From assembly GCA_016223045.1 (NCBI GenBank), contig JACRPT010000030.1, forward strand, positions 1 through 47,988: a DNA stretch of 47,988 nt, written 5' to 3'. Below, one piece after another: positions 15,141 through 38,247 of the stretch. The notes under the pieces were generated by a model. It was not told the DNA's origin. It saw only the letters and a program-made list of their open reading frames with translations, and ran no database searches. Made by a program: the position numbers and the translations under genes. This DNA is from Candidatus Eiseniibacteriota bacterium (GTDB taxonomy: Bacteria > Eisenbacteria > RBG-16-71-46). The first letter of the stretch is position 1. Every line of letters starts with the position of its first letter.

Positions 15141-15675
15141 GACCGAAGTTGATGGCGAAGAATGCGGGTGACGTGGACCCACCCCGATCCCATGCAGCAA
15201 CGATGCTGACGGGATGACGCGCGCGCGAGGCGAGGCGCTCGCGCGCACGTGCGCTCGCTCGTGACCTGCATGTGAACGAAAGTTCGATGGGACGAACCGG
15301 GCGCGCCCTGCTCGCGCGCCGAGTCGTCGCGCCACCCGGGCACGAGCGCGCTCCGTTCGCGCGACGTGTTCCGCGCGGGAGACGGTCCGCGCGGGGCGGC
15401 GGCGATGGAGCTGCTGAATCGCGCGACGGGATGAAGGGGACCGGCTCCCCGGCGAGGATCATGACGACACCTTTCGCTGCGCGCCGGGGGGCGCGTGGCG
15501 CGCGCGGTGGGACCGAGAGGGCCGGGACCGCCCCGGCCTCACGGGCGGGATCATAAGGCCCAGCGCCCCACTGCTCAAGTGTGCAGTTGGGGCCCGTGCG
15601 CCGCGAAGAGGAGCACGGCCTGCGGAGAGAACCTTCTGGCGGAGAACGGGTTGGCGAGCCGGAACTGGCCCGCTC

Positions 15676-18342: not shown

Positions 18343-18826
18343 AGTGCGGTTCTCCCCGACGCGGACACCTGCGGTGGGTTCCCGCACCCCGCGGTGCCCG
18401 GAACGCGGAGCGTTTGCGCGTGCCCCGGCCGCTGCCCGCGCCACCACTCACGCGCACCGCGGCGCCCCAGGCGCCGGGCGTCTGCGCGTGCCCCGGGACG
18501 CCGTGTCGCCCGGGACCGGGCGTGCGGGCCCGCCTGCTGCGCTGCGCCGCGTCGCCGCGCCGTTCAGGGAATGTCCCGGCTGTCAGGGAACGTGTCAGCG
18601 CTGGCGGGCGGGTGCTTGCCACGGCGCGGGCAGCGGAACCTCCGCCGGTCGCGCCGGCCGGACTCAGCCGGTTGTGAGAGCGGCGGTTGCGAGCCCGGCG
18701 TCGCGCGCCCCGCCGCGTGGCATGCCCATTGCGGGCGTCAGGCAGCCCCGATTCGAAACCGCGGGACGCAGGCTCGGAGCGCCCGATCGACGGACCGACC
18801 GACCGAGCATGATGAAAGGAGAGCAC

Positions 18827-20101
18827 ATGAGAGTCTCTCGGTGGATCGTGACCGGCAGCCTCGCTCTTTCTGCGGCCGCCATGCTGCTGGCGCTCGCGCG
18901 CCCCGCCACGGCGATCCCGGCGTGGGGACGCAAGTACGAGGTGGACTGCACGAGCTGCCACGTGGCCGGGTTCAAGCTCAACCGCTTCGGCCAGAACTTC
19001 CTGCGCTCCGGCCACCAGACCGCGGGCTGGGAACAGAAGCAGGACATCGGCGGCCACCTGAGCGTGGCCCAGAAGAGCCGCTTCAACTGGGGCAAGACCG
19101 TGGTGGACGGGGACGTGAAGGCCGGCTCCAAGGTCAACAGCTTCGAGCAGCACGCCCTCTCGGTCTACATGGGCGGCCCGCTGGAGAAGGAATGGTCCTA
19201 CTTCGCCGAGCTGTACTGGCAGGAGAACTCGGGCAACACCAGCGGCGCCTCCGACCTGAACGACTACGGGCGCAGCAAGCTGGCCGACGCCTACCTCCAG
19301 TACATCCACCACGAGGGTGACGACCAGTACACCTCCGTGCGCTTCGGCCAGTTCTCGCCCTTCCTGCTGCACCTGCACGGGGTGGGGGCGCGGCTCTCGC
19401 AGGACCGCCCCTACGTCATCAACAGCGGCACCGTGGGCGACAACCCCTACAAGGCCTTCGTCCGCCAGTACGGGCTCGAGGTCGCGCAGTCGGTCAGGAG
19501 CTTCACCGCCACCGCGGCGGTCATGAACGGGACCGGAGCCAAGCTCTTCAACCGCGTGGACAACGACCTCAAGAAGGACGCCTACGGCACGCTCGACTAT
19601 GCCTTCGACGAGTTCGGCTCGATGCTCGGCGTCTACGGCTACTCCGGCCACTACCCGCTGCGCGCCGACAACGCGGTCAAGTACGCCACCTACGACGATT
19701 TCAACCAGCTCGGCGTGCTCGGCAACTTCACCCGCAAGCAGGGCGCGCTGGTCGGGGCGTTCTTCAGCGGCACCAACAAGTTCTCGCTGACCAACGAGGT
19801 GGCGGCGCCGGCCGACACCGCGGACACGGCGGTCGAGCAGAAGTCCATGGGCTACTACGCCGAGGCGCAGCTCTACATGCTCCACCCGCGCGTGCAGCCC
19901 TACCTGCGCTGGGACTTCTGGGATCCGAACACCGACGTGGACAACAACGAGGTGTCGGGCCCGCTCTTCGGCATCTCCTGGCGCGCGCTCGATGCCGGCC
20001 GGCTGGTGGCGCACTACCAGGTGCTGAAGACGAAGAAGGGCTCGACCACGCTGGACGAGACCAAGCACTCGGTGGTGTTCGAGGCCAACTTCATGTTCTA
20101 G
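18827..20101 (+). CDS. Fused monoheme cytochrome-porin (Cyc2-like outer-membrane protein)
   Basis: ATG preceded by aaaggagag; signal peptide then IPAWGRKYEVDCTSCHVAGFKLNRFGQNFLRSGHQ (single N-terminal CXXCH), followed by about 370 aa of beta-barrel-like sequence ending SVVFEANFMF (terminal Phe). Confidence 0.75.
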   Translation: MRVSRWIVTGSLALSAAAMLLALARPATAIPAWGRKYEVDCTSCHVAGFKLNRFGQNFLRSGHQTAGWEQKQDIGGHLSVAQKSRFNWGKTVVDGDVKAGSKVNSFEQHALSVYMGGPLEKEWSYFAELYWQENSGNTSGASDLNDYGRSKLADAYLQYIHHEGDDQYTSVRFGQFSPFLLHLHGVGARLSQDRPYVINSGTVGDNPYKAFVRQYGLEVAQSVRSFTATAAVMNGTGAKLFNRVDNDLKKDAYGTLDYAFDEFGSMLGVYGYSGHYPLRADNAVKYATYDDFNQLGVLGNFTRKQGALVGAFFSGTNKFSLTNEVAAPADTADTAVEQKSMGYYAEAQLYMLHPRVQPYLRWDFWDPNTDVDNNEVSGPLFGISWRALDAGRLVAHYQVLKTKKGSTTLDETKHSVVFEANFMF

Positions 20102-20110
20102 CGGTCGCGG

Positions 20111-20144
20111 CGGCGGGCGGCGGGCAAGCTCCCGCCGCCCGCCG
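20111..20144 (+). terminator. Candidate terminator/attenuator hairpin after the cytochrome-porin gene
   Basis: Perfect 14-bp stem cggcgggcggcggg / cccgccgcccgccg with 6-nt loop, 9 nt after the TAG stop; no clear U-tract. Confidence 0.5.
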
Positions 20145-20434
20145 ACCAGTGCCGGGCCCCCTGGTGTCGCGCGCGGCACGGGCGCGCGGTCCTGGTCCCA
20201 TAGGACACTCGCCATTCCGTTCGGAAGTGGTAGTCTGCGCGAGTCGGACCGACGGTGCCTTGCCCGTCGGCCCGACCCGTTGCTGCCGGGCGACCCGCTG
20301 CTCCCTCGCTTCGAGTCACCGCCCGGCGCGACCGCCGGGCAGCGCGCGCACCGCGCGGGCCGGCGGTCCTTGTCCAGCGTGACTGTGGGACTCGCGCCCG
20401 AGCCGCGGCGCGGATCCCCTCCGGGATCCCGACC

Positions 20435-20863
20435 ATGAAACGAAGAGACCTGCTGGGCTGGGCGATCAAGGCGATGGGGGCGACCCTCGGCGGATTCGTC
20501 CTCTATCCGCTCGCGCGCTACCTGGTGCCGCCCAGTATCCCCGAGGCGGTCACCCGGCGCGTGGTGGCCGCGAAGAAGGGCGACGTGCCGCCCGGCGGCT
20601 TCAAGACCTTCCCGTTCGGCGCCCAGCCCGGGATCCTCGTCCACACCGCCGACGACCGCTGGCTCGCGCTCTCCGCCGTGTGCACCCACCTCGGCTGCAC
20701 CGTGCAGTACAAGAACAGCGATCGCATGATCTGGTGCGCCTGCCACAACGGCTTCTACGACCTCGACGGCCGCAACGTCTCGGGGCCGCCGCCGCGGCCG
20801 CTCGAGCGCTACGTGGTCCATGTCGAGGGCGAGGACGTCATCGTCGAGAAGGCCAAGGCATGA
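20435..20863 (+). CDS. Rieske [2Fe-2S] protein (module A)
   Basis: CTHLGC ... CACHNGFYD ligand boxes; N-terminal KRRDLLGW Tat-like anchor. Confidence 0.9.
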
Positions 20864-20924
20864 GCCTCGCGATCTCCGGTCGGCGCGCGCCGGACCCCGG
20901 GCCGGCGGCGTGGAGCGCGCCGTG

Positions 20925-21998
20925 GTGAGCCGGCTGCGCGAATGGCTGCGGGACCGGCTCGGCCTCGAGGCGCTGGAGCACGTCGCCGACAAGAAGGACG
21001 TTCCGGTCCACCGCCACAGCTTCTGGTACTACTGGGGCGGGATGACCCTGTTCCTGTTCGGGATCCAGGTCGCCACCGGCATCCTGCTGCTCCTCTACTA
21101 CCGCGCCAGCGCCGACGAAGCCTACGAGAGCGTGCGCTTCATCATGACGCAGGTCTCGTTCGGCTGGCTCATCCGCTCCATCCACTCGTGGAGCGCGAAC
21201 CTGATGATCGGCGCGGTCATGGTGCACATGTTCAGCGCCTTCATGCTCAAGGCCTACCGCGCGCCGCGCGAGGCCACGTGGCTGTCGGGCATGGTGCTGC
21301 TCGGGCTGTCGCTGGCGTTCGGTTTCAGCGGCTACCTGCTGCCCTGGAACCAGCTCGCGTTCTTCGCCACCAAGGTGGGCACCGACATCACCGGCGCGGT
21401 GCCCGTGATCGGTCCGTTCATGCTGCGCTTCCTGCGCGGCGGCGAGCACATCACCGGCGGCACGCTCACGCGCTTCTTCGGCTTCCACGTGGCCATCCTC
21501 CCCGCGGTCGTCACCGTGATCCTGGGTGTGCACCTCTACCTGGTGACGCACCACGGCATGAGCGTGCCGCCCTCGGTGGAGGGCCGGACGCCGCCCCCGC
21601 CGCGCATGAAGTTCGTGCCGAACTTCCTGCTGCGCGACATGGTGGGGTGGCTCGCCGCCCTCGCGCTGCTGGCGCTGCTGGCGGCGCTCTTCCCCTGGGA
21701 GCTGGGCCTGAAGGCGGACCCCTACGCCTCGGCGCCCGCCGGCATCAAGCCCGAGTGGTACTTCGGCTGGATGTTCCAGACCCTGCGCATGCTGCCCTCG
21801 CACATCCTCGGCATCGAAGGCGAGCTGGTGGGCATCCTCGGCATCGGCCTGGGCGGCGTGGTGTGGCTGCTGGTGCCGTTCCTCGACGACCCGCGCGGCC
21901 AGGGCCCGCGCGCCCGCTTCTGGCGGGTGCTCGGCGCGGTCGCGATCGTCTACGTCGTGGTCTTCACCCTGCTGGTCTACCGCGGAGCGACGCCGTGA
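20925..21998 (+). CDS. Cytochrome b of a Rieske/cytb complex (module A)
   Basis: [15 protein letters not shown] and [16 protein letters not shown] bis-His helix pairs, PEWYFGW Qo motif; GTG start. Confidence 0.9.
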
Positions 21999-23269
21999 GA
22001 CTCCCGCGCATCCTGATCGCGCCGCTCGCCACGCTCGCGCTGCTCGCCGCGCTGCCGGCCGCCGCGTCCGCGGCGCGCGCGGGCGCGAATCCGCAGAACT
22101 CCTGCCTCGACTGCCACCGCGCGCTCGACGACGCGCGACTGGCCGCACCGGCGAAGGCGTTCGCCGAGGACGTCCACGGCGCGCACGGCCTGGGCTGCAT
22201 CGGCTGCCACGGCGGCGACCCGACCGACGCCGACATCACCTCGATGGACCCCGACAAGGGTTTCAAGGGGACGCCGGCGCGCAAGGACATCGCCGAGATG
22301 TGCGCCACGTGCCACGCCAGCGCGGAGTTCATGAAGCGCTACAACCCGCAGCCCTACATCTTCTCGATGGCCGAGTTCCGCACCAGCGTCCACTGCAAGA
22401 AGATCGCGGTGGGCGACCCGAAGGTCGCGACCTGCACCAACTGCCACGGCGTGCACGGCATGCTGTCGCGCAAGGACCCGCGCTCGCCGGTCAACCGGCG
22501 CAACGTCCCCGCCACCTGCTCGAAGTGCCACAATCCCGAGTACATGAAGGGCCGCACGGTGCCCACCAACCAGTACGCGCTTTACCGCGTCAGCGTGCAC
22601 GGGAAGGCGCTGCTCGAGAAGGGCGACCTTTCGGCCCCGGCCTGCAACAACTGCCACGGCAACCACGGCGCGGTGCCGCCCAACACGCGCGACATCTCGC
22701 TGGTGTGCGGCACCTGCCACGGGCGCGAGGGCGAGCTGTTCGCGAAGAGCAAGGTGAAGGCGGGGCTCGAGCTGGAAGGCAAGCGCGGCTGCGTGACCTG
22801 CCACGGCAACCACGGCGTCCAGCTCCCGACCGACGCGCTCATCGGCACCACCGGCGACGGCGTGTGCGGCCGCTGCCATGAGAGCGGCTCGGCCGGCGCG
22901 CGCGCCTCTGACGTGATCGTGCCCGCGTTCCATGCGCTCAAGGCGCGCATCGGGGACGCCGACAGCCTGCTCGCCGTGGCCGACCGGCTCGGCATGGAGG
23001 TGGAGGCCGGCCGCGAGCTCCTGAAGCAGGCCGACGATCAGCTCGTGAACGTGCGTGCGACGCTCCACGGCTTCGACACGAAGCAGATCACCGCGGTGCT
23101 CACCGAGGGTGACGGGCTCGCCGACAAGGCGATCGCCCAGGCGCGCGACGCGTTGCGCGACTGGCGCATCCGCCGCATCGGCATGGCGCTCTCGGTCGTC
23201 GTGATCCTGCTGATGGCCGGGCTGCTGGCGCTGAGGATCCGCCGGCTCGAGCGCGGGCCGGGCGCGTAG
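21995..23269 (+). CDS. Nine-heme c-type cytochrome with C-terminal TM helix (module A)
   Basis: 9 CXXCH (CLDCH, CIGCH, CATCH, CTNCH, CSKCH, CNNCH, CGTCH, CVTCH, CGRCH); C-terminal [22 protein letters not shown] overlap with cyt b. Confidence 0.9.
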
Positions 23270-23374: not shown

Positions 23375-25594
23375 CTACGCCGGGTCTTCCGCCGCGGGCG
23401 GTGCGCCGCCGCCGGACCGCGCGCGCTCCGCCTCTTCCGCGGTCGCGCGCTCCGCGGCCACGATGCGCGCCCATTCGGCGTAGTGTTCGTGGCGCAGCTG
23501 CTCCTCGCCGATCTGCCCGCTGACCCAGGTCCAGTTCATCGGGTAGACATCGGGGTTCAGCACGTTCTGGTAGACGTGCCACACCAGAATGGCGAGGAAC
23601 GCCAGCCACGCCTCGTAGTAGTGGACCAGCGTGGCCAGGTCGAGCACCCACTTCGCCAGGACCCGCAGCGACTGGTTCTCGAACCACAGCACCAGGCCGG
23701 TCGCCGTCATCACCACGGTGCCCCACACCAGCGCCCAGTACTCGGCCTTCTCGATGTAGCCGAAGCGCTCGAACGCGGGCGGTGAGGGCCGCTTCCCGGC
23801 CAGATAGAGCAGGTTCGCGAACAGGTCCTTCACGTCCCGGAGCCGCGGCAGCAGCGCGAGCAGCGTGCCGCGCCCCCGCGTGGTGAGCGCGTAGCCGACG
23901 TGGAGCGCGGAGGCCGCCAGCATCACGATCGCGGCGCCGCGGTGGATCAGGCTGCGCCACGCATAGCCGCCCTCGAGCCGCGCCAGCCAGGCGAACGGCC
24001 ACGACTCGGGGAACTTGAGCGCGAAGCCGGTATAGACCAGCGTGAAGAAGCTGGTCAGCAGCAGCACGTGCTGGAGGCGCTCGAAGCGGGTCATGCGCAT
24101 GAACCAGCGCGGCGAGCCGTGATGCGCGGCGGGCGCGCCGAGGTGGCGCCGCCAGTGGGACTTGAGCTTCTTCGCGAAGTCCAGGCCGTTGTGCAGCACC
24201 ATGAAGCCGATGGTCCCGAAGATGAGGAACAGGTAGATCAGGCGCGCGTAGTAGAGGACGGGATTGTCCGGGGTGGCCATCGCCACGTGCACCGGCCCCA
24301 TCGCGAACTTCGTGCCGGCGCCGGGGTGGCACTTGCCGCAGGTCTCGGGCAGGCGCCGCGGGCTCACCGCCGAGCGCGGGTCGCTCGAGGGCAGCACGTC
24401 GTGGTAGCCGTGGCAGCTCGCGCAGTTTGCCACCGCGGGCGAGCCGCCGCGTGCCGCCAGCCCGTGGAAGCTGTCCTTGTAGGTGCTGAGCCGCCCGGCC
24501 GGGAGCCCGTAGGTCTCGCGGATCACGGTGGCCTCGTGGCAACGCGAGCAGGTCTCGGTGACATGCCCCGCCACCACCGGCGAGCCAGGATCGTGCGTCC
24601 CGCGGATGCGGTGCTCGCCGTGGCAGTCGGTGCACATCGGCGCGGCCGTCACTCCGGAGCGCAGCGCCGTGCCGTGGATGCCGGCGCGGTAGGCGGCGGT
24701 CTCCGGCGCGTGGCACTTGCCGCAGGTGGACGGGATGTTCGTGCGGTAGATCGAGGAGGCGGGGTCGGTCGCGCGCTTCAGCCGGTGGCTCTCGTGGCAG
24801 TCATTGCAGGTCGCTGCGCGCGGATTCGGCGAGCGTCCGTGCACGCTCTGGGAGTAGAGCGCGTAGGCCTCCGGGATGGTGATCTTGCGGCGCGCCATCA
24901 GCGCGCGGTCGGCGTGGCAGCGGGCGCAGGTCCTGGCCAGGTTGGCCCGGCTGACCGGCGCGGTGGGGTCGCGGTGTGACCGGAGGGAGTGGAACTCGCC
25001 ATGGCAGTCGCCGCAGGTCGAGGCCTCCGGGTCGCCCTTCGCGAGCGCCACGCCGTGCACGCTGCCGCCGTAGTCCTCGCTCTCGCGCGCGTGGCACGCG
25101 GCGCACGCCGCGGTGCCGGTCCTGGCTGCGGGGCGCACGCCGTGCGTGCCGTGGCAGCCGGTGCAGCTCGCCTGGGCCCGCGCCACCGCCGCGCCCGCGT
25201 GCACGCTCTGCCCGATCGCGCGGGCCTCGGCGGTGTGACAGGCGCCGCACCGCACCGCCGGGAGCTTCGGCTCGTGCGGGATGGCGGTGACGCCGCGGTG
25301 GCAGTCCACGCACGCCCGCTTCGCGTGCGGCGAGGCCGCGAGCTGCCCCAGGTCCACGGTGAGCGAGCCGGTGCGTCCCGGGCCGCTCCGCGCCAGCGTC
25401 CGGTCCGCGTGGCACGACATGCAGACGTCGTCGCTGATGACCTCGGCGCGCGCGCGGACGAAGCAGAGCGCGAGCAGGAATGCGGCGGCGAGGCCCGCGC
25501 GCCGGGCGCGCGACCACCCGGAACCCGGCCTTCCATGGGCGCCGCCGGGGGCCCGGCGCGCGCGGAAATGGAGGATGCCGCCTCTGGACTCCAT
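23375..25594 (-). CDS. 13-heme c-type cytochrome fused to b-type (b561/FdnI-like) membrane domain
   Basis: 13 CXXCH motifs, then FERLQHVLLLTSFFTLVYTGF ... HRGAAIVMLAASALHVGY ... HYYEAWLAFLAILVWHVY. Confidence 0.9.
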   Translation of the reverse strand: MESRGGILHFRARRAPGGAHGRPGSGWSRARRAGLAAAFLLALCFVRARAEVISDDVCMSCHADRTLARSGPGRTGSLTVDLGQLAASPHAKRACVDCHRGVTAIPHEPKLPAVRCGACHTAEARAIGQSVHAGAAVARAQASCTGCHGTHGVRPAARTGTAACAACHARESEDYGGSVHGVALAKGDPEASTCGDCHGEFHSLRSHRDPTAPVSRANLARTCARCHADRALMARRKITIPEAYALYSQSVHGRSPNPRAATCNDCHESHRLKRATDPASSIYRTNIPSTCGKCHAPETAAYRAGIHGTALRSGVTAAPMCTDCHGEHRIRGTHDPGSPVVAGHVTETCSRCHEATVIRETYGLPAGRLSTYKDSFHGLAARGGSPAVANCASCHGYHDVLPSSDPRSAVSPRRLPETCGKCHPGAGTKFAMGPVHVAMATPDNPVLYYARLIYLFLIFGTIGFMVLHNGLDFAKKLKSHWRRHLGAPAAHHGSPRWFMRMTRFERLQHVLLLTSFFTLVYTGFALKFPESWPFAWLARLEGGYAWRSLIHRGAAIVMLAASALHVGYALTTRGRGTLLALLPRLRDVKDLFANLLYLAGKRPSPPAFERFGYIEKAEYWALVWGTVVMTATGLVLWFENQSLRVLAKWVLDLATLVHYYEAWLAFLAILVWHVYQNVLNPDVYPMNWTWVSGQIGEEQLRHEHYAEWARIVAAERATAEEAERARSGGGAPPAAEDPA

Positions 25595-25761
25595 ACCGAC
25601 CCTGATCGGAGGGTGTGGACGAACCACGACACTCCGCAAACGCAAAGAGCGGACCATACAGCATTTCCGAAGCCCGGGGCCGGGGTCGGCTCTCCGTCCG
25701 CGACTTCCGCAGTCGCACCGGGAGGTATCCAAAGAGCGACCTCGACTTGTGGGGTGCCAAT

Positions 25762-25777
25762 TCAGTAAAAGTACTGA
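25762..25777. promoter_or_regulatory. Candidate operator: 16-bp inverted repeat in divergent cytochrome promoter region
   Basis: TCAGTA-aaag-TACTGA between divergent genes 23375..25594 (-) and 25998..26540 (+), in a locally AT-rich patch. Confidence 0.35.
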
Positions 25778-25997
25778 CAGGCGTGGCAGACTCCACCGGC
25801 GCCTGGTGCGTAGGATGGAGCGCCCCACGACTTCATTCCCGCGCAACTGCCGGCCTGCGTGCGCCGCGGGTGGTCCGGCCCGCTCCTTGCTGCCCCTGGG
25901 CATGGAACGGGTGAGGCGCCCGGCGGACCGCGCTCGTGATGCGAGCCGGGCAGGGATGGGTGATGGGCTTCGACTTCCACACTGCGGAGGAGGACCA

Positions 25998-26540
25998 ATG
26001 TTCAGAAGGATCCTGGCACTCGGAGTCGCGGCGGGCGTCACGTTCGCCCTCGCCGCCTACGCCGCCGATGCGGCGGGCCCCGAATACGTCGGCATGACCA
26101 AGTGCAAGATGTGTCACGCGAAGCAGTACAAGGCGTGGACCGAGACCAGGCACGCGAAGGCCTTCGCGGGCCTCAAGGCGGCCGACGAAGCGACCATCAA
26201 GAAGATGGCCGAGACCCTCAAGGCCGAGGTCAAGGACCATCCCGAGACCAGCGAGGCCTGCGTCGGCTGCCACGTCACCGGCTACAAGAAGCCGGGCGGC
26301 TACCCCGCGGCGGACAGCCTGAAGACCGCGGCGGTCACGAACGTGACCTGCGAGGCCTGCCACGGCCCGGGCAGCGTGCACGTCAAGTCCACGATGGCCG
26401 AGAAGAAGAAGACCATGGAGGCCGCCCTGCCGACCGCGGCCACCTGCCAGAAGTGCCACACCGCCGACATCAGCCCGAAGTTCGACTTCGACGCGATGAA
26501 GAAGGGTGTGCACCCGGTGGCGGCGGCGCCGGCGAAGTAG
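25998..26540 (+). CDS. Tetraheme cytochrome c554-like periplasmic protein
   Basis: RBS ggaggaggacc; signal peptide; EYVGMTKCKMCHAKQYKAWTETRHAKAF; 4 CXXCH (CKMCH, CVGCH, CEACH, CQKCH). Confidence 0.85.
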   Translation: MFRRILALGVAAGVTFALAAYAADAAGPEYVGMTKCKMCHAKQYKAWTETRHAKAFAGLKAADEATIKKMAETLKAEVKDHPETSEACVGCHVTGYKKPGGYPAADSLKTAAVTNVTCEACHGPGSVHVKSTMAEKKKTMEAALPTAATCQKCHTADISPKFDFDAMKKGVHPVAAAPAK

Positions 26541-26582: not shown

Positions 26583-29498
26583 ATGACCGGACGTGACGAA
26601 GGGGAGCGGGTGACTCGGGAGGCGCGAGAGCACAGGGGCGGGGTGGAGGGGCGCATCCGCGAGACGGACGCAGGATCTTCAGCCGCGGGCCGGACTGCAT
26701 CGCGCAGGCCGGCCCGCGGTCTCGTTCTTCCCGCGCTGGCGCTCGCCGCCCTGGTGGCGGCGCTGTCCGGCGCGGCCGGGGACTCGGCACCCGGGCCGCT
26801 GCCCGGCGCCGAGGAGTGCGGCGTCTGCCACGAAGCCGGGCCGCCGCTCGCCAGGCGCGCGCCCGACACGCCGCCGCGCTTCGACGCGGCCGGCTTGCGC
26901 GGCTCGCCCCACGCGGCGCTGGCGTGCGCGGCGTGCCACGCCGACCTCGAGGGCAAGGAGTTCCCGCACGAGCGGAAGCCCGCCCCGGTGTCGTGCGGCG
27001 GCTGCCACGCCGCCGAGCTCAAGCAGTTCAACGAGAGCCTGCACGGCCAGGCCGCCGCGCGCGGCGAGAAGCTCGCGCCGGGCTGCAAGGACTGCCACGG
27101 GCGCCACGACGTGCTGCGCGCGTCCGACATCCGCTCGGTCACCAACACGATGAGCGTCCCGGAGCTGTGCGGGCGCTGCCACCACGAGGGTTCTCCGGTC
27201 CAGCTGACCTACCACATCCCGCAGGACTCGATCCTCGCGAACTACTCGGAGTCCATCCACGGCGAGGGGCTCTACAAGAAGGGCCTGATGACGACTGCGG
27301 TGTGCACCAGCTGCCACACCGCGCACCACGTGCTGCCCCACACCGACCCGCGATCGAGCATCGCCCGCCGGAACGTGGCCGCGACCTGCATGAAGTGCCA
27401 CGTGCGCATCGAGACCGTGCACCGCAAGATCGTCAACGGCGTCCTGTGGGAGAGCCAGCCCAACGCCATCCCCGCGTGCGTCGAGTGCCACCAGCCGCAC
27501 CGCGTGCGCAAGGTGTTCTACACGCAGGGCATGGCGGACCGCGACTGCCTGGTCTGCCACGCGCGCCGCGACCTGAAGTCGCAGGACGGGCGCACGATGT
27601 TCGTGGACCACGCGGAACTGCTGGGCTCGCGCCACCAGAAGATCGCGTGCGCCCAGTGCCACAGCGGGGCGCAGCCCTCGAAGACGCGCGCGTGCGCCAC
27701 CATCACGCGCAGGGTGGACTGCTCGGTGTGCCACGCCGAGGTGGTGGACACCTACCGGAAGAGCACGCACGGCCAGCTCGCCGCTAAGGGCAGCCCGGAC
27801 GCGCCGGTGTGCCGCGACTGCCACGGCACGCACGGGACCCTCGGCCACCTGCAGTCGGACGCGCCCACCTACTCGCAGCACGTCCCCAACCTGTGCGGGC
27901 GCTGCCACCGCGCGGGCCAGAAGGCCGCGGTGCGCTACCGCGGGCCCGAGAAGCTGGTGGTGGAGCACTACGTCGAGAGCATCCACGGCAAGGGGCTGCT
28001 CGAGAGCGGCCTCACCGTGACCGCGACCTGCGTGGACTGCCACACCTCGCACGGCGAGCTGCCGCACCAGGACCCGGCCTCGAGCGTGAACCGGGCGAAC
28101 GTGGCGCGAACCTGCGCCCAGTGCCACCGCGGCATCTACGAGCTGTACGCGAACAGCGTGCACGCGCCGGGCGCCACCCGGACCAAGAAGCCGCTGCCGA
28201 CCTGCTCGGACTGCCACTCGGCGCACACCATCCGGCGCACCGACCGCGAGGATTTCCGCCTCAACATCATGACCCAGTGCGGGCGCTGCCACGAGGATCT
28301 GGCGAAGACCTACTTCGAGACCTATCACGGCAAGGTCTCGAAGCTCGGCTACCTCAAGACCGCGAAGTGCTACGACTGCCACGGCGCGCACGACATCCTG
28401 CCGAACTGGAATCCGAGGTCGCACCTGAGCCGCGCCAACATCGTGAAGACCTGCGGGCACTGCCACCCCGGCTCGAACCGCCGCTTCGCCGGCTACCTCA
28501 CGCACGCGACGCACCACGAGCCGCACCGCTACCCGGCGCTGTTCTGGGTGTTCTGGGGCATGACCGGGCTGCTGGTCGGCACCTTCACGCTGGCGGGCCT
28601 GCACACGCTGGCCTGGCTGCCGCGCTCGCTCCAGTACCGGCGCGAGCTGGAGCGCGAGCACGCCACCGAGAGCGCGCAGCACGTGCGGCGCTTCCCGCCG
28701 CTCTACCGCAACCTGCACCTGATGGTCATCGTCAGCTTCATCGGGCTGGCACTGACCGGCATGACGCTCAAGTTCTCGTACACGCCCTGGGCCTTCGTGC
28801 TGTCGCGCCTGCTCGGCGGCTTCGAGGCTGCGGGCTTCATCCACCGCGTGTGCGCGGTGATCACCTTCACCTACTTTTTCCTGCACGTGCGCGACATGCT
28901 GCGGCGCAAGAAGCAGGGCCGGATGTCGTGGAAGGCGTTCATCGCAGGCTCGAGCGGGATGCTCCCGGGCCGGACCGACCTCAGGGAGTTCTGGCAGTCG
29001 GTCAAGTGGTTCGCCGGCAGGGGCCCGCGACCGCGCTACGGACGCTGGACCTACTGGGAGAAGTTCGACTACTTCGCGGTGTTCTGGGGCGTGGCGATCA
29101 TCGGCTCGACCGGGCTGATGCTGTGGTTCCCGACCTTCTTCACGAAGCTGCTGCCGGGCTGGCTCATCAACGTCGCGACCATCATCCACAGCGACGAGGC
29201 GCTGCTCGCGGTGGGCTTCATCTTCACCGTGCACTTCTTCAACACGCACTTCCGCCCCGAGAAGTTCCCGATGGACACCGTGATCTTCACCGGCGGCGTG
29301 CCGCTCGACGAGTTCAGGAAGGACCGGCCGCGCGAGTACGAGGAGCTGGTGGCGAGCGGCCGGCTCGAGGAGCTGCTGATGGAGCCGCCGTCGCCGAAGC
29401 ACCTCCACGCCTGGCGCATCTTCGGCTTCATCGCGCTCTCGACCGGGATCCTGCTCATCCTCCTGATCGTCTACGCGGAGATCTTCGGATACCGGTAG
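26583..29498 (+). CDS. 19-heme c-type cytochrome fused to b-type membrane domain
   Basis: 19 CXXCH motifs over about 590 aa, then multi-TM domain with LYRNLHLMVIVSFIGLALTGM, FIHRVCAVITFTYFFLHV, IHSDEALLAVGFIFTVHFFNTHF. Confidence 0.9.
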   Translation: MTGRDEGERVTREAREHRGGVEGRIRETDAGSSAAGRTASRRPARGLVLPALALAALVAALSGAAGDSAPGPLPGAEECGVCHEAGPPLARRAPDTPPRFDAAGLRGSPHAALACAACHADLEGKEFPHERKPAPVSCGGCHAAELKQFNESLHGQAAARGEKLAPGCKDCHGRHDVLRASDIRSVTNTMSVPELCGRCHHEGSPVQLTYHIPQDSILANYSESIHGEGLYKKGLMTTAVCTSCHTAHHVLPHTDPRSSIARRNVAATCMKCHVRIETVHRKIVNGVLWESQPNAIPACVECHQPHRVRKVFYTQGMADRDCLVCHARRDLKSQDGRTMFVDHAELLGSRHQKIACAQCHSGAQPSKTRACATITRRVDCSVCHAEVVDTYRKSTHGQLAAKGSPDAPVCRDCHGTHGTLGHLQSDAPTYSQHVPNLCGRCHRAGQKAAVRYRGPEKLVVEHYVESIHGKGLLESGLTVTATCVDCHTSHGELPHQDPASSVNRANVARTCAQCHRGIYELYANSVHAPGATRTKKPLPTCSDCHSAHTIRRTDREDFRLNIMTQCGRCHEDLAKTYFETYHGKVSKLGYLKTAKCYDCHGAHDILPNWNPRSHLSRANIVKTCGHCHPGSNRRFAGYLTHATHHEPHRYPALFWVFWGMTGLLVGTFTLAGLHTLAWLPRSLQYRRELEREHATESAQHVRRFPPLYRNLHLMVIVSFIGLALTGMTLKFSYTPWAFVLSRLLGGFEAAGFIHRVCAVITFTYFFLHVRDMLRRKKQGRMSWKAFIAGSSGMLPGRTDLREFWQSVKWFAGRGPRPRYGRWTYWEKFDYFAVFWGVAIIGSTGLMLWFPTFFTKLLPGWLINVATIIHSDEALLAVGFIFTVHFFNTHFRPEKFPMDTVIFTGGVPLDEFRKDRPREYEELVASGRLEELLMEPPSPKHLHAWRIFGFIALSTGILLILLIVYAEIFGYR

Positions 29499-30352: not shown

Positions 30353-31561
30353 CTACAGGACTTCCGGCAGCGGGTCCTGCAGACGCCGGGTGGGCAGGAT
30401 CCTGACCAGCACGGTCAGGATCACGAAGGGCAAAGCGAGGAGCACGAGCGCGGTGAGCAGCCCCTCCAACCCGGTCATCTCCATCTTGTAGGTCATCAGC
30501 CCGCGGAAGCTCTTTGAGAACAGCTGGCCGCCGATCACCACGTTCCAGCGCGTGCTGAAGATGCCCATCTGGATCAGGATGACGGCGGTGAAGTAGAGCA
30601 GCTTGCGCATGTCCTCGTTGAAGTGCCTGAGCCGCGCGATCACCAGGATCGCGAGCGGGATGAGCATCCCGAGCAGGATCTGGAGCACCACCAGGTTCAT
30701 GAACAGCTTGAGCGAGATGAGCTTGCCCAGGATCTTGACCGATTCCTCGCTCTGGTAGAGCCGGTGGATGAAATCGAGCGCTTCGAGCGAGAAGTCCACG
30801 ATCACCGCGTAGAACAGGAACGAGGCGATCCGGTCGAGGCAGCGCATGTCGATCCGCTCGTTCCGCATCGCGGTGATCACCATGTAGAGGAAGATCACCA
30901 TGGCGATGCCGGAGACGATCGCCGACATCAGGAACACGATCGGCATCAGCACGCTGCCCCACCACGGATTCGCCTTCACCGAGCCGAAGATGAATCCGAC
31001 GTAGCCGTGGAGCAGGAACGCCGACGGGATGCCGACGATGGTGATGGCCTTGATCGCCTTCTTGTCGAAGGCCACGGCCTGGTCGCTCACGTCCTTCGAG
31101 AACAGCGTGAGCACGCGGTGGATCCAGCGCAGCGGCCCGCGCTCCTGCCCCGCCAGCACGACCAGGTCGCGCCGGTACTCGAACCAGATCTCGAGCAGCA
31201 GCACGCCCATCAGGTACCAGGCGTAGACGAACCCGAACATCGCCATGGCCGAGGTCAGGTGCGGCGTGAGGAAGATCTCGAACGAGCGCTCGGGGTGGCC
31301 GAGGTGCAGCAGCAGCGGGAACGGCGCCACCAGCAGGAACGCGAGCGCGGTCAGCAGCGACAGCCGGTAGGTCGGCTGCACGTCCTTCACGTTAAAGACC
31401 TTGACCAGCGACGCGAGGATGAACGCGCCCGCCACCAGCCCGGTCACGTACGGGTAGACCACGATCAGGATCGACCAGTGGATCTCGATCTCGTTCGGGT
31501 AGATGTAGCCCGTCACCTGGCCCAGCAGCTCCGACAGGCCCTTCGGGATCTCGGCGATCAT
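30353..31561 (-). CDS. NrfD/polysulfide-reductase-type integral membrane quinone-interacting subunit
   Basis: EIEIHWSILIVVYPYVTGLVAGAFILASL...LHLGHPERSFEIFLTPHLTSAMAMFG. Confidence 0.9.
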   Translation of the reverse strand: MIAEIPKGLSELLGQVTGYIYPNEIEIHWSILIVVYPYVTGLVAGAFILASLVKVFNVKDVQPTYRLSLLTALAFLLVAPFPLLLHLGHPERSFEIFLTPHLTSAMAMFGFVYAWYLMGVLLLEIWFEYRRDLVVLAGQERGPLRWIHRVLTLFSKDVSDQAVAFDKKAIKAITIVGIPSAFLLHGYVGFIFGSVKANPWWGSVLMPIVFLMSAIVSGIAMVIFLYMVITAMRNERIDMRCLDRIASFLFYAVIVDFSLEALDFIHRLYQSEESVKILGKLISLKLFMNLVVLQILLGMLIPLAILVIARLRHFNEDMRKLLYFTAVILIQMGIFSTRWNVVIGGQLFSKSFRGLMTYKMEMTGLEGLLTALVLLALPFVILTVLVRILPTRRLQDPLPEVL

Positions 31562-32349
31562 CGCACCTCCCCGTCGAGCTGGGCGTAGTAGACCTTGGGC
31601 TCCGTGTTGAGCGCGGGCTTCAGCACGCCGATCTTGTTCATGCGCTGGAAGCGCACCAGCCGGCTCGCTTTGCTCCTGAGATCGCCGAAGATCCGCGCCT
31701 GCGTCGGACACACCTCGACGCACGCCGGCAGCAGGCCCCTGGTGATGCGGTGGTAGCAGAACGTGCACTTGTCCGCGGTGCTCGTGCGGTGGTCGAAGTA
31801 GCGCGCGCCGTACGGGCAGGCCTGGATGCAGTAGCGGCAGCCGATACAGCGGTCCTTGTCGATCAGCACCACGCCGTCCCGGGTCGAGAACGTGGCGCCC
31901 ACCGGGCAGACCTGGACGCACGGCGGATGCGCGCACTGGTTGCAGAGCTTCGGCACGAAGAACGTGCGCAGGACGTCCCGGTCTTCCTGCAGCTCGCCGC
32001 GCTGCTGCGGGTTGACGCTGATGCACTCGACCCGGGCCTCGCCGTCGTGCATCACGCGGTAGCGCTCGACCCAGGTGCGGAAGAAGAACGGCTCCTGCGG
32101 CACGTCGTTCTCGGCCTTGCAGGCCTCGGCGCAGCGATTGCAGCCGATGCACTTGTCGATCTCGATCCCCATCCCGTACCAGTGGTCGGCGGGCTGGTAG
32201 TCGCCCAGCCCCATGTCGGGCTCGGCATCCGGCTTCGCCGGCTTCGGCTTCCCGGGCCCGGCGGCCTCGGCCTGCCGGGCGAGCGTCTCCAGCAGCTGGC
32301 CGGCGGGAATGAACAGGATCATGCCCTTGAGGAACTGGCGCTTGTTCAT
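31558..32349 (-). CDS. Exported ferredoxin-like protein with four [4Fe-4S] clusters (HybA/NrfC/HmcB-type)
   Basis: CIGCNRCAEAC, CNQCAHPPCVQVC, CIGCRYCIQAC, CTFCYHRITRGLLPACVEVC; N-terminal KRQFLKGM Tat-like signal; ATGA overlap with nrfD-like gene. Confidence 0.9.
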   Translation of the reverse strand: MNKRQFLKGMILFIPAGQLLETLARQAEAAGPGKPKPAKPDAEPDMGLGDYQPADHWYGMGIEIDKCIGCNRCAEACKAENDVPQEPFFFRTWVERYRVMHDGEARVECISVNPQQRGELQEDRDVLRTFFVPKLCNQCAHPPCVQVCPVGATFSTRDGVVLIDKDRCIGCRYCIQACPYGARYFDHRTSTADKCTFCYHRITRGLLPACVEVCPTQARIFGDLRSKASRLVRFQRMNKIGVLKPALNTEPKVYYAQLDGEVR

Positions 32350-33080
32350 TCCATGCCCTCCGGCTGGTGCGGGTAGTGGCACTGCCAGCACAGGTAGGCG
32401 CCGCCGTGCGCGGCCAGGTCCACCTTTGGCGCGTCGGGGTTGGCGGCTCCGCTCGCGTGGCACTGCCCGCAGAACTCGCGGGTCTGTGGCTTGGTGGGGA
32501 GCGCGCTGCGCGGCGCGACCTTGTGCTGCTCGCTCGCGGTGTGGCAGGTCGTGCACTCGAGCAGCGCGTGGCTGGAGAGCGCCTTGGTGCGCGCGATCTG
32601 CGCGTGGCAGGCCGAGCACTCGTGAGGCACCTCGGGCGGCACCGGGTCGTGCGGGTTGTGGCAGGTGATGCAGGGCTTGAGCGGGTTGTGCGCGGTCGGG
32701 TTGATCTGCGGGAAGCCGGTCGGTCGGGCCGCGTCGTAGGCGTGGCACACCGGGCAGAACTTGCGGTCGCGCGGCGCGTACGGCTTCACCGTCATCGGGT
32801 CGTCGGCGTGTTTCGCCGAGGGGCCGTGGCAGGTCTCGCAGGCCACGTTCTTGTGGTAGCCGTGGCTCTTGGCGTCGAACTGCTCCTCGTGGCACTCGCG
32901 GCAGGCGAGGACGCCCGCGAAGCTCACCGGCCGCGCCACCTCGCGCTTGACCGCGTTGGCGCGGTGGAGCTTCGTCGAGAAGTAGGACGCCGGGATGACG
33001 ACGAAGCGGACGACGAGGACCGCCGCGAGCACCACGGCGGTCACCGCTGCGAGCCGGCGGACCTGCTCGGGGAACTTCAA
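32346..33080 (-). CDS. Octaheme c-type cytochrome, N-terminally membrane anchored
   Basis: 8 CXXCH (CRECH, CETCH, CPVCH, CITCH, CSACH, CTTCH, CGQCH, CWQCH); likely TTG start with aggaggt upstream. Confidence 0.85.
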   Translation of the reverse strand: MKFPEQVRRLAAVTAVVLAAVLVVRFVVIPASYFSTKLHRANAVKREVARPVSFAGVLACRECHEEQFDAKSHGYHKNVACETCHGPSAKHADDPMTVKPYAPRDRKFCPVCHAYDAARPTGFPQINPTAHNPLKPCITCHNPHDPVPPEVPHECSACHAQIARTKALSSHALLECTTCHTASEQHKVAPRSALPTKPQTREFCGQCHASGAANPDAPKVDLAAHGGAYLCWQCHYPHQPEGME

Positions 33081-33326
33081 CGGACCTCCTGTGCCCGAGG
33101 GATGAGCGGTGCTGCGGGAGGGCGGCGCGGCGCGAGGGTCCCGCCCGGCGCCCCATCGTGCTCGTGAGATGGAACGGTCGTCCAAGCTATCAGGGGTGGG
33201 GAGGCGCGGGAAGCACGGACCGCAGGGGCGGCATGCGCCGATGGTCCGCCACGCTCTGGTCCGATGGTCTACGTGGGCGCGGTGGACCGGGTCGCGGGCG
33301 TCACGCGCGGAAGCGCGACGCGTTGC

Positions 33327-35147
33327 TCAGTCGCTGCCGTGGCAGCCGGCGCAGGCCGCCTTCGCCGGCCGGAGCTGGCCGGCCTTCGGGTCGTGGCAGG
33401 CGCCGCACTCGGCGCCCATCTCGAGGTGCGCCCGGTGCGAGAACTCCCCGCGGAAGCTCGGGATCGTGCGCGTCGTCACGTCGGCGTGGCATCTGGTGCA
33501 CGCGCTCGCGGCGGTCTCGGCCTGCCGGTGATGGCAGGGCACGCAGCCCTCGCCGCCGAACCGCACCACCTCGCCGGGCGCGCGCTGGTCGTGCGGGCGG
33601 TGGCAGTCGCCACAGTCGAGCTTCGCGGTGGTGAGGTGCGGCGCGTGCGCGAACGCGTGGCCCGCGAACCCGCCCTTCTGCGATTCGACGCCCTGGTGGC
33701 AGAGCAGGCACTTCCCGGCGCCCACGGACACCATGGACCACGGGCGCTCGAGCGCCGCCAGACCCTTCGCGCGGCGTGCCGCGTTCATCTGCTGGTACGC
33801 CTGCTCGAGCAGCGCGTAGGCGAAGTTCACGTTGTGCACGCCCTTGCCCTGCTCGACCAGCTGGAAGTTGTGGCGCGCGTCGGTCCACGACTGCAGCGGC
33901 TCGAGGCCCATCGCGCCCACGCTGGACTCGAGCTCGCGGCGGAGCGCCGCGACGCGCTGCTCCATGCCCTGCTTCCACGCCTGGTAGATCCTCCCGTAGG
34001 CCGGGCCGTGGCACGACATGCAGCTCACCTCGTTGGCGCGCTGGATCACCGGCCCGAGCGGCCCCTTCGCGGCCTGCGCGATCATCAGACCCTGGTTGTG
34101 GCAGCCCTGGCAGGTCACGCCCGCCGCGAACATCGGCCCCGGCATGCGCGGCACGCCGCGGCCGCCGATGCCGGCGTAGAGGTCCTGCTGCGCCGAGTGC
34201 CCCGCGCCGTGGCACGACTCGCAGGCGCCGGCCGCGGCGCCCGCGGCGGCGGCCTCCGGCTTCGCCAGCCGCCCGTGCTCGATCTGCAGGTGGCAGGTCA
34301 TGCAGTCCACCTTGTGCTCGGTGACGTGCATGCGGTGCAGGTAGTCCCGGTCTCCGAACTTCGCCAGCCGGTCCGGCTGGTTGTGGCAGGTGACGCAGCG
34401 CTCGCGCGGCACGTTGCCCTCGCCGCGCACCACGCCCGAGTGGCACAGCCTGCAGTTCATGTCGAGGCGTGCGACCTGGCTGTGGTCGAACGCCACGCCC
34501 TCGACGGTGGTGACCTTGTCGGGGATCTGGTGGCAGTTCTGGCAGCGCCCGGAGCCGCCGTTGACCGGCTGGCCCTTGAAGTGGCACAACGCGCAGGTCG
34601 AGGAGGTCACGCTGATGTGGCTGCCCTGCACGATCTGCGAGTGGCACGAGGTGCAGCGGAGCTTCAGGCCGCGCCGGCTCTCGGTGAGGTGCGGCGTGTG
34701 GTCGAACAGCACGTTGTGGAAGACTTCCTTGCCTTCGAGCAGCCGGCGCTCGTGGCAGCGCAGGCAGGCCGCATCGTCCACCTCGGCCCACGGGTTGGTG
34801 CTGTAGGTGCCGGTGAAGTACTTCACCACCATCGAGAGCGCCTCGTACTTCTTGCGCAGCTCCGCGGTGATGCCCGGTGAGATGTGGCACTCGACGCAGG
34901 CGATCTGGTTGTGCTTCGAGTGCTTCCACGACTGGTAGTAGGGCTTCATGATGTGGCAGGTGCCGCAGAACGTCGGCGTCGAGGACACCTGCATCGCCAG
35001 CAGCATGGCGACGATCACCAGCCCGAGCGCGAGCCCGGCGCTCAGCGTGGCGATCCGGAGCCCGCGCGGCGTGAGCCGGCCGCCGCTGCTGCTCGCGACC
35101 CAGCGGCCGATCGGCGAATCGGGACCCAGGCCGGGGACCCGGGGCAT
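33327..35147 (-). CDS. 18-heme cytochrome with N-terminal NapC/NirT-like quinol dehydrogenase domain
   Basis: TM helix followed by PTFCGTCHIMKPYYQSWKHSKHNQIACVECHISPG (NapC/NrfH-like), 18 CXXCH in total. Upstream start at 35204 also possible. Confidence 0.88.
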   Translation of the reverse strand: MPRVPGLGPDSPIGRWVASSSGGRLTPRGLRIATLSAGLALGLVIVAMLLAMQVSSTPTFCGTCHIMKPYYQSWKHSKHNQIACVECHISPGITAELRKKYEALSMVVKYFTGTYSTNPWAEVDDAACLRCHERRLLEGKEVFHNVLFDHTPHLTESRRGLKLRCTSCHSQIVQGSHISVTSSTCALCHFKGQPVNGGSGRCQNCHQIPDKVTTVEGVAFDHSQVARLDMNCRLCHSGVVRGEGNVPRERCVTCHNQPDRLAKFGDRDYLHRMHVTEHKVDCMTCHLQIEHGRLAKPEAAAAGAAAGACESCHGAGHSAQQDLYAGIGGRGVPRMPGPMFAAGVTCQGCHNQGLMIAQAAKGPLGPVIQRANEVSCMSCHGPAYGRIYQAWKQGMEQRVAALRRELESSVGAMGLEPLQSWTDARHNFQLVEQGKGVHNVNFAYALLEQAYQQMNAARRAKGLAALERPWSMVSVGAGKCLLCHQGVESQKGGFAGHAFAHAPHLTTAKLDCGDCHRPHDQRAPGEVVRFGGEGCVPCHHRQAETAASACTRCHADVTTRTIPSFRGEFSHRAHLEMGAECGACHDPKAGQLRPAKAACAGCHGSD

Positions 35148-35310
35148 CAGTCCGGACCGGCCGTGGTCCGCGTCGCGAGAACGCGAGATGGCCGCGGGAT
35201 GCAAGGCGCGCCGCCCGCCCGCACCGCAGTCGGTGCCCTGGCCACCGTCGAGGAGCGGACGGGCAGCGCAACGTGGCAGACTGCGGCCAGATCGCGTTCG
35301 CAGCAGCGGG

Positions 35311-36645
35311 TCATGGCCGGTCCGGACTGCCCTTCCTCGCGCCCTGGTCGCGGTACCGCTTCAGGACGAGCAGCGTCAGCAGCAGGTAGAACCAGAACAG
35401 GATGAGGACGAACTTGCGCTGCCTCAGGTGCCCGAGCTTGCCGTAGATCTCGGACTGCACCTCGTGGCCCATCGAACGCGCGCGCGTGGTGAAGCCCGCG
35501 ACCACGTCCTCCTGGACCGCGTGCGCCGCAGGCAGGGCCTCGCGCAGGTAGGTGCGGGCCTCCTCGATGCGCGCGCGGTAGTCGTCGGTCTGGAGCGGGA
35601 CCGCGTCGGCCCGGGCGGTGAGCGCCGCCGCCTTCTCCACCTCGTCGGCGGCCGAGTGGTAGTCGGTCCAGATCCGCCGTCCCAGCGCCAGCGTCTTCGC
35701 GTCCTTCGCGTGGCACTGCGCGCACGAGCCGGCCAGCCGCTCGGGCTGAGCGGCCTGGACGGTGTGGGCCTCGTGGCAGGAGGCGCACTCGGGGCCGTCA
35801 TCGCCGCTCCTCGCGCGATAGTGTCCGCCGGCCATGAAGTAGCGGCGCTCGGCGGTGTGGCACTGGCCGCACACCTTGTCCACGTCGCCCAGCGCGGGGG
35901 GCGCGGCGCCGTGAACGCCGTGGCAGCTCACGCAGGTGGGCGCGCGCAGGTTGCCGCGGTCGTAGAGTTCGCGCGCGTGGACGCTTCCCATGTAGAGCCG
36001 GAACACGTCGGGCTTGCCGCGCTGTTTCATGAGCGTGCTGTCGCCGTGGCACGCGCCGCAGGTCCTGGGGATGTTGAGCGTGAACGTGCGGCTCGCCGGG
36101 TCCTTCGGCGGCAGGATGTCGTGAGCGCCGTGGCAGTCCGAGCACACCGCCACGCGCGTGTCGCCCCGCGCGAGCAGGCGGCCGTGCCCCGAGGTCTGGT
36201 AGAGCGCGTGCTGGTCCACCGGCAGGTTGTAGGGCCGCATGCGCGCCTCGCTCGAGTGGCACGAGGCGCACAGGGCGGGAACGTCCTTGCGCGCGGGCCG
36301 GCCCCTGAACCCGGCCCCGTGCGCGCTGGCGACCTCGAGGCTCCGGTCGTTGCCGCCGTGGCAGGAGGTGCAGCGCACGCCCTCCTCGGCGTGCTGGCTC
36401 TTCTCGAACTGGACGCGCTCGGTGGGATGGCACACGCCGCAGCGCCCGGAGCCGGGCGAGACCGCGGTGGGAGCGCTGGCGTCGGGGTTCGGGTTGCCGG
36501 GCTGGGCGAGCGCGAGCGCGGGCAGCAGCAGGAGGCCGGCCGCGAGCGACGCGAGCGCGGGCAGCGGCAGGAGGCCCGGCGCCAGCGCCCCACGCCGGCC
36601 ACCGCCGGCGTGCTCGATCGCAGGAGCGGAACGGGTCGCGGTCAT
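35311..36645 (-). CDS. Nine-heme c-type cytochrome with C-terminal TM helix (module B)
   Basis: 9 CXXCH (CGVCH, CTSCH, CASCH, CSDCH, CGACH, CVSCH, CGQCH, CASCH, CAQCH); C-terminal helical region and VLILFWFYLLLTLLVL; same architecture as 21995..23269. Confidence 0.9.
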   Translation of the reverse strand: MTATRSAPAIEHAGGGRRGALAPGLLPLPALASLAAGLLLLPALALAQPGNPNPDASAPTAVSPGSGRCGVCHPTERVQFEKSQHAEEGVRCTSCHGGNDRSLEVASAHGAGFRGRPARKDVPALCASCHSSEARMRPYNLPVDQHALYQTSGHGRLLARGDTRVAVCSDCHGAHDILPPKDPASRTFTLNIPRTCGACHGDSTLMKQRGKPDVFRLYMGSVHARELYDRGNLRAPTCVSCHGVHGAAPPALGDVDKVCGQCHTAERRYFMAGGHYRARSGDDGPECASCHEAHTVQAAQPERLAGSCAQCHAKDAKTLALGRRIWTDYHSAADEVEKAAALTARADAVPLQTDDYRARIEEARTYLREALPAAHAVQEDVVAGFTTRARSMGHEVQSEIYGKLGHLRQRKFVLILFWFYLLLTLLVLKRYRDQGARKGSPDRP

Positions 36646-37783: not shown

Positions 37784-38247
37784 AGGTGGACGAAGATCTC
37801 GCCGGCCCGCACCGACACGGCGTAGGTGGGGAGTGCGCGCGGTGGCGGCCCGGAGAGCACGTTGCCCGCGAGGTCGAAGCGCCCGTCATGGCACGGGCAC
37901 ACCAGCACGCGGCGCTCGCGGTCGAAGTCCACGATGCAGCGCACGTGCGTGCACACCGCGGAGAGCGCCACCACCCGCTCGGCGTCGAGGCGCACCACGT
38001 AGAACGGCGAGACCCCGTGCCGCACCAGGCGGCCCTCGCCGATCTTGAAGTCGTCGAGCAGGCCGGCGCTCACCAGGTGCCCGGCCACCTTCTCGCGGTG
38101 CTCGGGCGCGCGCAGGTAGGCGCCGACGACGCCCGCCGCGCCGAGGCCCCACAGGCCCAGGAAGGCGCGGGAGAGCCAGGTCAGGAAGCGGCGGCGGGTC
38201 GCGGGCTCGCCCGTCGCCGGTGCGGCGCGCTCCCTGGGTGCGGACAT
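37780..38247 (-). CDS. Rieske [2Fe-2S] protein (module B)
   Basis: CTHVRC ... CPCHDGRFD; N-terminal TRRRFLTWLSRAFLG Tat-like anchor; RBS agggagg. Confidence 0.88.
   Translation of the reverse strand: MSAPRERAAPATGEPATRRRFLTWLSRAFLGLWGLGAAGVVGAYLRAPEHREKVAGHLVSAGLLDDFKIGEGRLVRHGVSPFYVVRLDAERVVALSAVCTHVRCIVDFDRERRVLVCPCHDGRFDLAGNVLSGPPPRALPTYAVSVRAGEIFVHL

Follow-up and report, generated by a model that had tools for sequence, protein, structure and literature searches.

Does the gene for a small haem-carrying porin that lies beside a set of multihaem cytochrome genes in an Eisenbacteria genome encode Cyc2, and if not, what would the protein do there? Cyc2 ranks among the principal marker genes of iron oxidation by microbes. 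The gene in question occupies positions 18827..20101 (+) of the 47,988-nucleotide stretch of DNA that we analysed, here called the window. A preliminary description had read it as a Cyc2-like fused monohaem cytochrome-porin that heads a multihaem cluster. On the basis of homology, tree, AlphaFold2 model and profile, we assign it to the W-type clade of fused monohaem cytochrome-porins, which is defined below.

The open reading frame of 424 amino acids starts with ATG behind a good Shine-Dalgarno sequence (AAAGGAG). According to sequence and model, the N-terminus is signal-peptide-like, with a hydrophobic helix at residues 3-23 and ATA ahead of IPAW. The signal peptide (about 1-29) is followed by a haem domain (about 30-63), which holds the single CXXCH of the protein (C41-C44-H45), and by a barrel (77-423); the final residue is Phe. 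The N-terminus IPAWGRKYEVDCTSCHVAGFKLNRFGQNFLRSGHQ had been quoted correctly; the residues preceding RKY, however, are W-G, not the F-x of the consensus to which it had been likened. Searches of Pfam, NCBIfam and PDB with the sequence yielded zero matches, PF11854 (MtrB/PioB) included.

Given 40 aligned family members as input, AlphaFold2 produced a model with a mean pLDDT of 80.6 and a pTM of 0.80. In it, the haem motif is surrounded by a small helical domain, which precedes exactly 16 strands (77-423); confidence is low near residues 27-30. A 16-strand barrel with a haem plug had been named beforehand as the fold to look for, and 16 strands behind a helical haem domain are what the model contains; the barrel-like remainder ending in Phe had also been described correctly. 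The Elusimicrobiota orthologue L045 is likewise predicted to have 16 strands. Foldseek matched the window model to PorB (E 5e-12), OprP (2o4v, 9e-11), OprO (4rjw, 5e-9) and OmpF. PorB, OprP and OprO have the 16-strand barrel in common with the window porin, but lack the haem domain and are only 10-14% identical to it in sequence. OprP and OprO are the published fold templates for Cyc2 of Mariprofundus PV-1 (PMC8406198).

The family is large and widely scattered. In tblastn, the window porin hit two Elusimicrobiota proteins with E values of 3e-79 and 1e-79. A genome scan with the window protein alone found zero relatives; a degenerate pattern did recover them from GTDB genomes, 391 in many phyla, of which 80 were kept. 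As this pattern itself picks the N-terminal motif, conservation in that region is in part built in. In a plasmid collection, the only finds were weak strict-motif relatives of two kinds; the window protein had none there. A left-out profile, built from 60 strict-motif cytochrome-porins with the window protein and its clade excluded, scores the window porin at 157 bits over its full length and the barrel alone at 96-98 bits; the controls, 20 shuffles and one MtrB protein, reach at most 5.7 bits and 2 bits, respectively. Because both the full-length and the barrel-only scores are high, the homology spans haem domain and barrel. The claim of a fused monohaem cytochrome-porin is thus borne out by one CXXCH, the barrel model and full-length profile homology. 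Judged by its sequence, the window porin belongs to a fused cytochrome-porin superfamily that is wider than Cyc2 and includes it.

In a tree of 92 rows, the window porin, two Elusimicrobiota proteins and one of the Chthonomonadaceae (Armatimonadota) stand together with a support of 100/98. A search of the phylum Elusimicrobiota (5 of 249 genomes) added four further proteins, and in the extended tree the eight W-type rows again form one clade (100/98). They are 33-45% identical to the window porin, have 66 invariant positions and share the motif A-x-x-A-W-[AGS]-R-[KR]-Y-x3-CxxCH, continuing CxxCHxxG..KL; the motif proline is missing in four Elusimicrobiota members. The haem-proximal H45 is the sole invariant His of these rows and an internal invariant Met is absent, hence no conserved His/Met candidate for the sixth haem ligand was found besides H45. 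Every row has C41, C44 and H45, although barrel identity falls to about 20%. A recent foreign import of the gene was ruled out on base composition, its GC3 of 0.967 being similar to that of the neighbouring genes.

Is it Cyc2, then? The published signature comprises AXPXFAR[Q/K][T/Y] before the CXXCH, PXL after it and a minimum of 365 amino acids (PMC8406198). The window porin does have a single CXXCH near the N-terminus after a signal peptide and a length of at least 365 amino acids. The first motif, present in 60 of the 92 family rows, is broken to AIPAWGRKY, with W in place of F and G in place of A. So is the second, which is expected about 4 residues past CXXCH and present in 81 of 92 rows; here it is replaced by VAGFKL. 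In the tree, the window porin groups away from the FARQT strict-motif plasmid proteins L042 and L043, the sole reference-like ones present, and a profile comparison of W-type barrels with these two gave no match (E 0.31). Since both signature parts fail, we do not file the protein as Cyc2. By the published motif it stands outside Cyc2, as a related fused cytochrome-porin of the W type. The label “Cyc2-like” therefore stands as far as architecture, fold and homology are concerned; it does not stand for either part of the motif, nor for a grouping with the FARQT proteins.

Cyc2 proper (Mariprofundus ferrooxydans PV-1, clusters 1-3; PMC8406198, PMC7029218) resembles the window porin in signal peptide, CXXCH and length. 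The PV-1 type has a 16-strand OprP/OprO-like barrel, and its haem domain and barrel are homologous to those of the window porin. The latter differs in AIPAWGRKY and FKL, in its separate clade and in its Rieske-cytochrome b and multihaem neighbours. Among studied proteins, PV-1 Cyc2 is the nearest one; it oxidises Fe(II), its haem being at +208 mV, and cluster 3 is the most divergent cluster of the Cyc2 family, its function being called most uncertain (PMC8406198). Leptospirillum Cyt572 and further proteins of cluster 3 (Acidobacteriota, Nitrospirota) are fused cytochrome-porins like the window porin, which lies far from Nitrospira L071 and L074 in the 92-row tree. Cyc2 homologues have already been reported in Eisenbacteria MAGs (PMC9769843). 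The general kind is therefore known from this phylum; the accessible part of that report describes neither a W-type clade nor a Rieske-linked cluster. The window's genome itself holds two further cytochrome-porins. P0002 has the core motif save the leading A and adjoins a Rieske-cytochrome b-8-haem set; P0003 reads AIPAFSRKY (one change) and adjoins a molybdopterin-FeS-NrfD-multihaem set.

In the window, the porin gene is the first of a plus-strand run. It is followed by genes for a Rieske [2Fe-2S] protein (20435..20863, +; PF00355, 1.4e-12; 67% identical in G010, the nearest relative, of the same family), a bc-type cytochrome b (20922..21998, +, GTG start estimated; PF00033, 1.9e-48; 77% in G010) and a 9-haem cytochrome c with a C-terminal membrane anchor (21995..23269, +; 60% in G010), the start of which overlaps the cytochrome b stop. 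Next come a CbcL-like fusion of a 13-haem cytochrome with cytochrome b561 (23375..26041, -, as listed), whose true start probably lies further in, a c554-like cytochrome with 4 CXXCH (25281..26540, +, the longest frame, with its real start at about 26000; PF13435, 2.7e-19) and a 19-haem cytochrome with a C-terminal b-type membrane part (26583..29498, +). The minus strand then encodes an NrfD-type quinone membrane subunit (30353..31612, -; PF03916, 1e-35; 82% in G010), a 4Fe-4S ferredoxin subunit (31558..32238, -), an 8-haem cytochrome c (32346..33185, -; 75% in G010) and an 18-haem cytochrome with a NapC/NirT N-terminus (33327..35204, -; PF03264, 5.1e-12). A second bc-like module consists of a 9-haem cytochrome c (35311..36645, -), a cytochrome b (36815..37783, -) and a Rieske-type protein (37780..38247, -), which was named from sequence and similarity and matches Rieske proteins at other loci. 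The frame of this second cytochrome b (36695-37783, -) is interrupted by an in-frame TAG after ...WLPVPAWL, beyond which cytochrome b-like sequence continues; the G010 homologue is unbroken and lacks the TAG. A mutation, an assembly error or a split gene would account for it. FeoB was not recognised near the porin in the window.

The genome (3.88 Mb, 97.6% complete; the window is its contig 19) has one haem-copper oxidase and yielded no match to the MtrB/PioB barrel (PF11854) or to RuBisCO. With the latter match absent, iron-fed CO2 fixation via RuBisCO is unlikely. The earlier idea of a trans-envelope path without MtrAB is plausible, as the MtrB/PioB barrel was not found in the genome, and the postulated link to inner-membrane quinone and multihaem modules is seen in the window and repeated in other phyla.

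The porin may nevertheless be transcribed on its own. A GC-rich hairpin directly 3' of its stop (20101..20153, +) was found by folding energy, which amounts to -49.8 kcal/mol for 20098-20170 (z -2.8); it is a possible terminator despite the absence of a T run. Porin and Rieske gene are 333 bp apart, and this gap, with the strong hairpin inside it, suggests a transcript separate from the Rieske gene. Upstream, a tentative sigma-54-like site (TGGCAT-N5-TTGC, 1 mismatch; 18718..18732, +) lies 95-109 bp 5' of the porin start. It is the only match in the window at up to 1 mismatch, where 3 would be expected by chance, and its position hints at a promoter. Also 5' of the porin, a small receiver-like frame of 114 amino acids (18000-18342, +) has no Pfam match; an unrelated STAS-like gene on the opposite strand takes its place in G010. 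Two adjoining TolB-like beta-propeller frames of lipoprotein type, 330 amino acids each (15676-17657, -), are probably a tandem duplication.

How firmly the porin is tied to its neighbours can be judged from other Eisenbacteria. G010 retains the Rieske, cytochrome b, 9-haem, NrfD, FeS, 8-, 18- and 9-haem genes at 60-83% identity. The W-type porin was not found in this stretch of G010, nor were the three genes that span 23.4 to 29.5 kb in the window, and upstream the DNA similarity between the two starts only within the Rieske gene. As G010 keeps the cluster without the porin, the cluster is independent of it. The porin thus heads the cluster in the sense that it is first in the plus-strand run, but the cluster persists without it in G010 and the hairpin gap separates the two. 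Of 47 Eisenbacteria genomes, 14, with the window's among them, match the cytochrome b better than E 1e-60, and the protein is 53-64% identical in nine Eisenbacteria genomes besides G010. In G030 and G017, genes for a multihaem protein of MtrA type and for an MtrB_PioB barrel (4e-77 and 4e-63) form the start of the same Rieske-cytochrome b operon; they sit 43-46 bp before the Rieske gene, at the position of the porin in the window. MtrB occurs in 11 of the 47 genomes and was not found in the window's or in G010; the genomes compared are draft MAGs, which makes such absences soft. The outer-membrane part ahead of the Rieske-cytochrome b operon hence varies: it is MtrAB in some relatives and the W-type porin in the window. 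This may be a functional exchange. A plain replacement of MtrAB by the porin is weakened by the Elusimicrobiota locus L169, where both adjoin. Another Eisenbacteria cytochrome-porin lineage (G005:C80 / L038, L036, L032) is marked by LPLFARKYxMQCTxCHxAFPRLN and GMQFRQNGYR, and no respiratory neighbours were seen in the stretches examined.

In other phyla, the association recurs. Rieske-cytochrome b adjoins four of the eight W-type genes, i.e., that of the window and those of Elusimicrobiota L170, L171 and L172; if MtrAB is counted too, five of eight. L170 and L171 have porin, Rieske, cytochrome b and a cytochrome b-c fusion together, and L170 then continues into FeoB and a FeoA/iron-repressor protein (12984-15662). 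In L172, ResB/CcsA haem-attachment genes (named from sequence) are followed by the porin, a NapC-type multihaem protein, another multihaem protein, Rieske and cytochrome b; its NapC-type protein is the orthologue of the 18-haem protein of the window (34% over 574 amino acids, E 2e-99). L169 combines the porin with a monohaem cytochrome, a 10-haem protein and MtrB_PioB (1.3e-100). At L045 (12455-15791), MntP, FeoB and a FeoA/iron-repressor fusion lie beside the porin. The iron genes at L045 and L170 hint at an iron-regulated use of W-type porins. Multihaem or Rieske neighbours were not found at L044 and L046, nor was a bc-type cytochrome b match in the Elusimicrobiota genome E14. The first two Elusimicrobiota loci, which lack multihaem neighbours, had made a case against a respiratory role; the four further loci reversed it. 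In the wider family, Rieske-cytochrome b lies within the flanks examined at 16 of 77 loci, and Omnitrophota L083 has the order of the window: porin, Rieske (50%), cytochrome b (54%), multihaem. One to a few cytochrome b genes per genome would put one into about 1% of 20-kb stretches; with this estimate, the association is not due to chance. It is meaningful but loose.

We therefore read the window porin, with a probability of about 0.6, as a single-polypeptide, one-haem outer-membrane conduit for dissolved iron that feeds the multihaem-quinone module. Electrons would probably pass through it between the cell and metal dissolved in the surroundings. The 16-stranded porin would sit in the outer membrane, with one attached haem plugging its N-terminal, periplasmic end. 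Metal ions in solution, with Fe(II)/Fe(III) as the likeliest ones, would enter the barrel from outside and swap one electron with this haem, which alone would have to span the membrane. The haem would swap the electron with periplasmic multihaem cytochromes as putative partners, and these would communicate with the quinone pool via the Rieske-cytochrome b and NapC/CbcL/NrfD-type modules encoded nearby. As to direction, we lean slightly to Fe(II) oxidation, with about an even chance, because Cyc2 of PV-1 oxidises Fe(II) and iron genes border two members of the clade. Export to dissolved Fe(III)/Mn is kept in play as a minority view, since the modules look like quinol oxidases: modules like ImcH and CbcL are more familiar from metal reducers (PMC6295460).

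A true Cyc2 would be an Fe(II) oxidase that feeds the oxidase and, uphill, the quinone via the bc complex. Architecture, fold class and haem domain are the same, homologues are reported in Eisenbacteria MAGs (PMC9769843), FeoB and iron-repressor genes are neighbours at L045 and L170, and the genome has its one haem-copper oxidase. With both defining motif parts failing, the grouping apart from the FARQT proteins, the barrel comparison without a match and no RuBisCO match in the genome, we nevertheless regard this as unlikely. Tentative, and somewhat doubtful, is an anaerobic exit, in which the Rieske-cytochrome b, CbcL-, NapC-like and NrfD modules oxidise quinol, and soluble Fe(III), Mn or a shuttle accepts the electrons from the porin haem. 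The 13-haem-b561 fusion, the NapC-18-haem and the NrfD-FeS proteins do resemble the quinol oxidases of metal reducers, and in G030 and G017 the Rieske-cytochrome b operon has MtrAB, known as an exporter, at its head. Yet those fused cytochrome-porins that have been characterised oxidise Fe(II) (PMC8406198), solid oxides would be out of reach for a single haem inside a narrow barrel, and an extracellular multihaem partner of the window gene would be hypothetical.

Distinctly improbable is a role in metal supply or sensing, with the haem porin reducing Fe(III) chelates for FeoB uptake and the genes of extracellular electron transfer lying nearby by chance. FeoB, FeoA/iron repressor and MntP at L045, FeoB and repressor at L170, L044 and L046 without respiratory neighbours and the own hairpin and gap in the window would suit it; Rieske-cytochrome b or MtrAB beside five of the eight clade members and the lack of a recognised FeoB near the window porin would not. 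That the protein is a non-conductive porin, its CXXCH being structural or never loaded with haem, is very improbable: the missing conserved sixth ligand and the low model confidence around residues 27-30 can be cited in favour, but C41, C44 and H45 stay invariant in all rows while the barrel drifts to about 20% identity, and the neighbours are c-type cytochromes, at L172 even together with ResB/CcsA. The conduit for dissolved iron, which we prefer, has its own burdens: G010 without the porin, the hairpin gap, L044 and L046 without multihaem or Rieske neighbours, E14 without a bc-type cytochrome b match, the lack of a conserved sixth ligand, the RuBisCO not found and the likeness of the modules to those of metal reducers.

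With MtrAB, MtoAB and PioAB the window porin would share the function of an outer-membrane electron conduit. It differs from them as one protein with one haem, 16 strands and no PF11854 match; in L169, an MtrB barrel and a W-type porin lie side by side. More generally, it is a little short of an even bet that the W-type lineage serves a Rieske-cytochrome b and NapC-multihaem quinone module as its partner in the outer membrane in Eisenbacteria and Elusimicrobiota, in the place of MtrAB. If true, both phyla would have a complete trans-envelope electron route that current Cyc2/MtrB searches may miss; the published Cyc2 motif would miss the W-type clade. If W-type porins conduct electrons, iron or extracellular electron metabolism reaches lineages where it is not looked for. 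The exchange of MtrAB and porin would also let one compare one haem in a small barrel with a ten-haem, 26-strand conduit. In the searchable literature, the W-type clade, its departure from the Cyc2 motif, the Rieske-cytochrome b/NapC link in at least two phyla and the exchange with MtrAB appear to be new.

The loci of the wider family show further recurrent genes. A monohaem cytochrome with CxxCHxLARPIN and no Pfam match recurs near cytochrome-porins of Elusimicrobiota, Eisenbacteria and Acidobacteriota (L169 4222-4734, L170 3098-3691, L171 10881-11462, L172 13044-13628, L024 10878-11513, L117 11342-11698). It is a candidate periplasmic partner; as a universal one it was rejected, the window's genome having no match. 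A MauG/peroxidase-type dihaem gene lies directly 5' of NDFGQRFRDNGY-type cytochrome-porins at 21 of 77 loci in many phyla (among them L023, L025, L026, L048, L049, L055 and L081), a conserved two-gene system. Finally, a cassette of cytochrome-porin, FeS-flavin oxidoreductase, Rieske, split cytochrome b, 8-haem and monohaem cytochrome is found across phyla (L029 283-8593; L051, L059, L065, L100, L107, L111 and others), and a copy of this kind is present on contig 133 of the window's genome.
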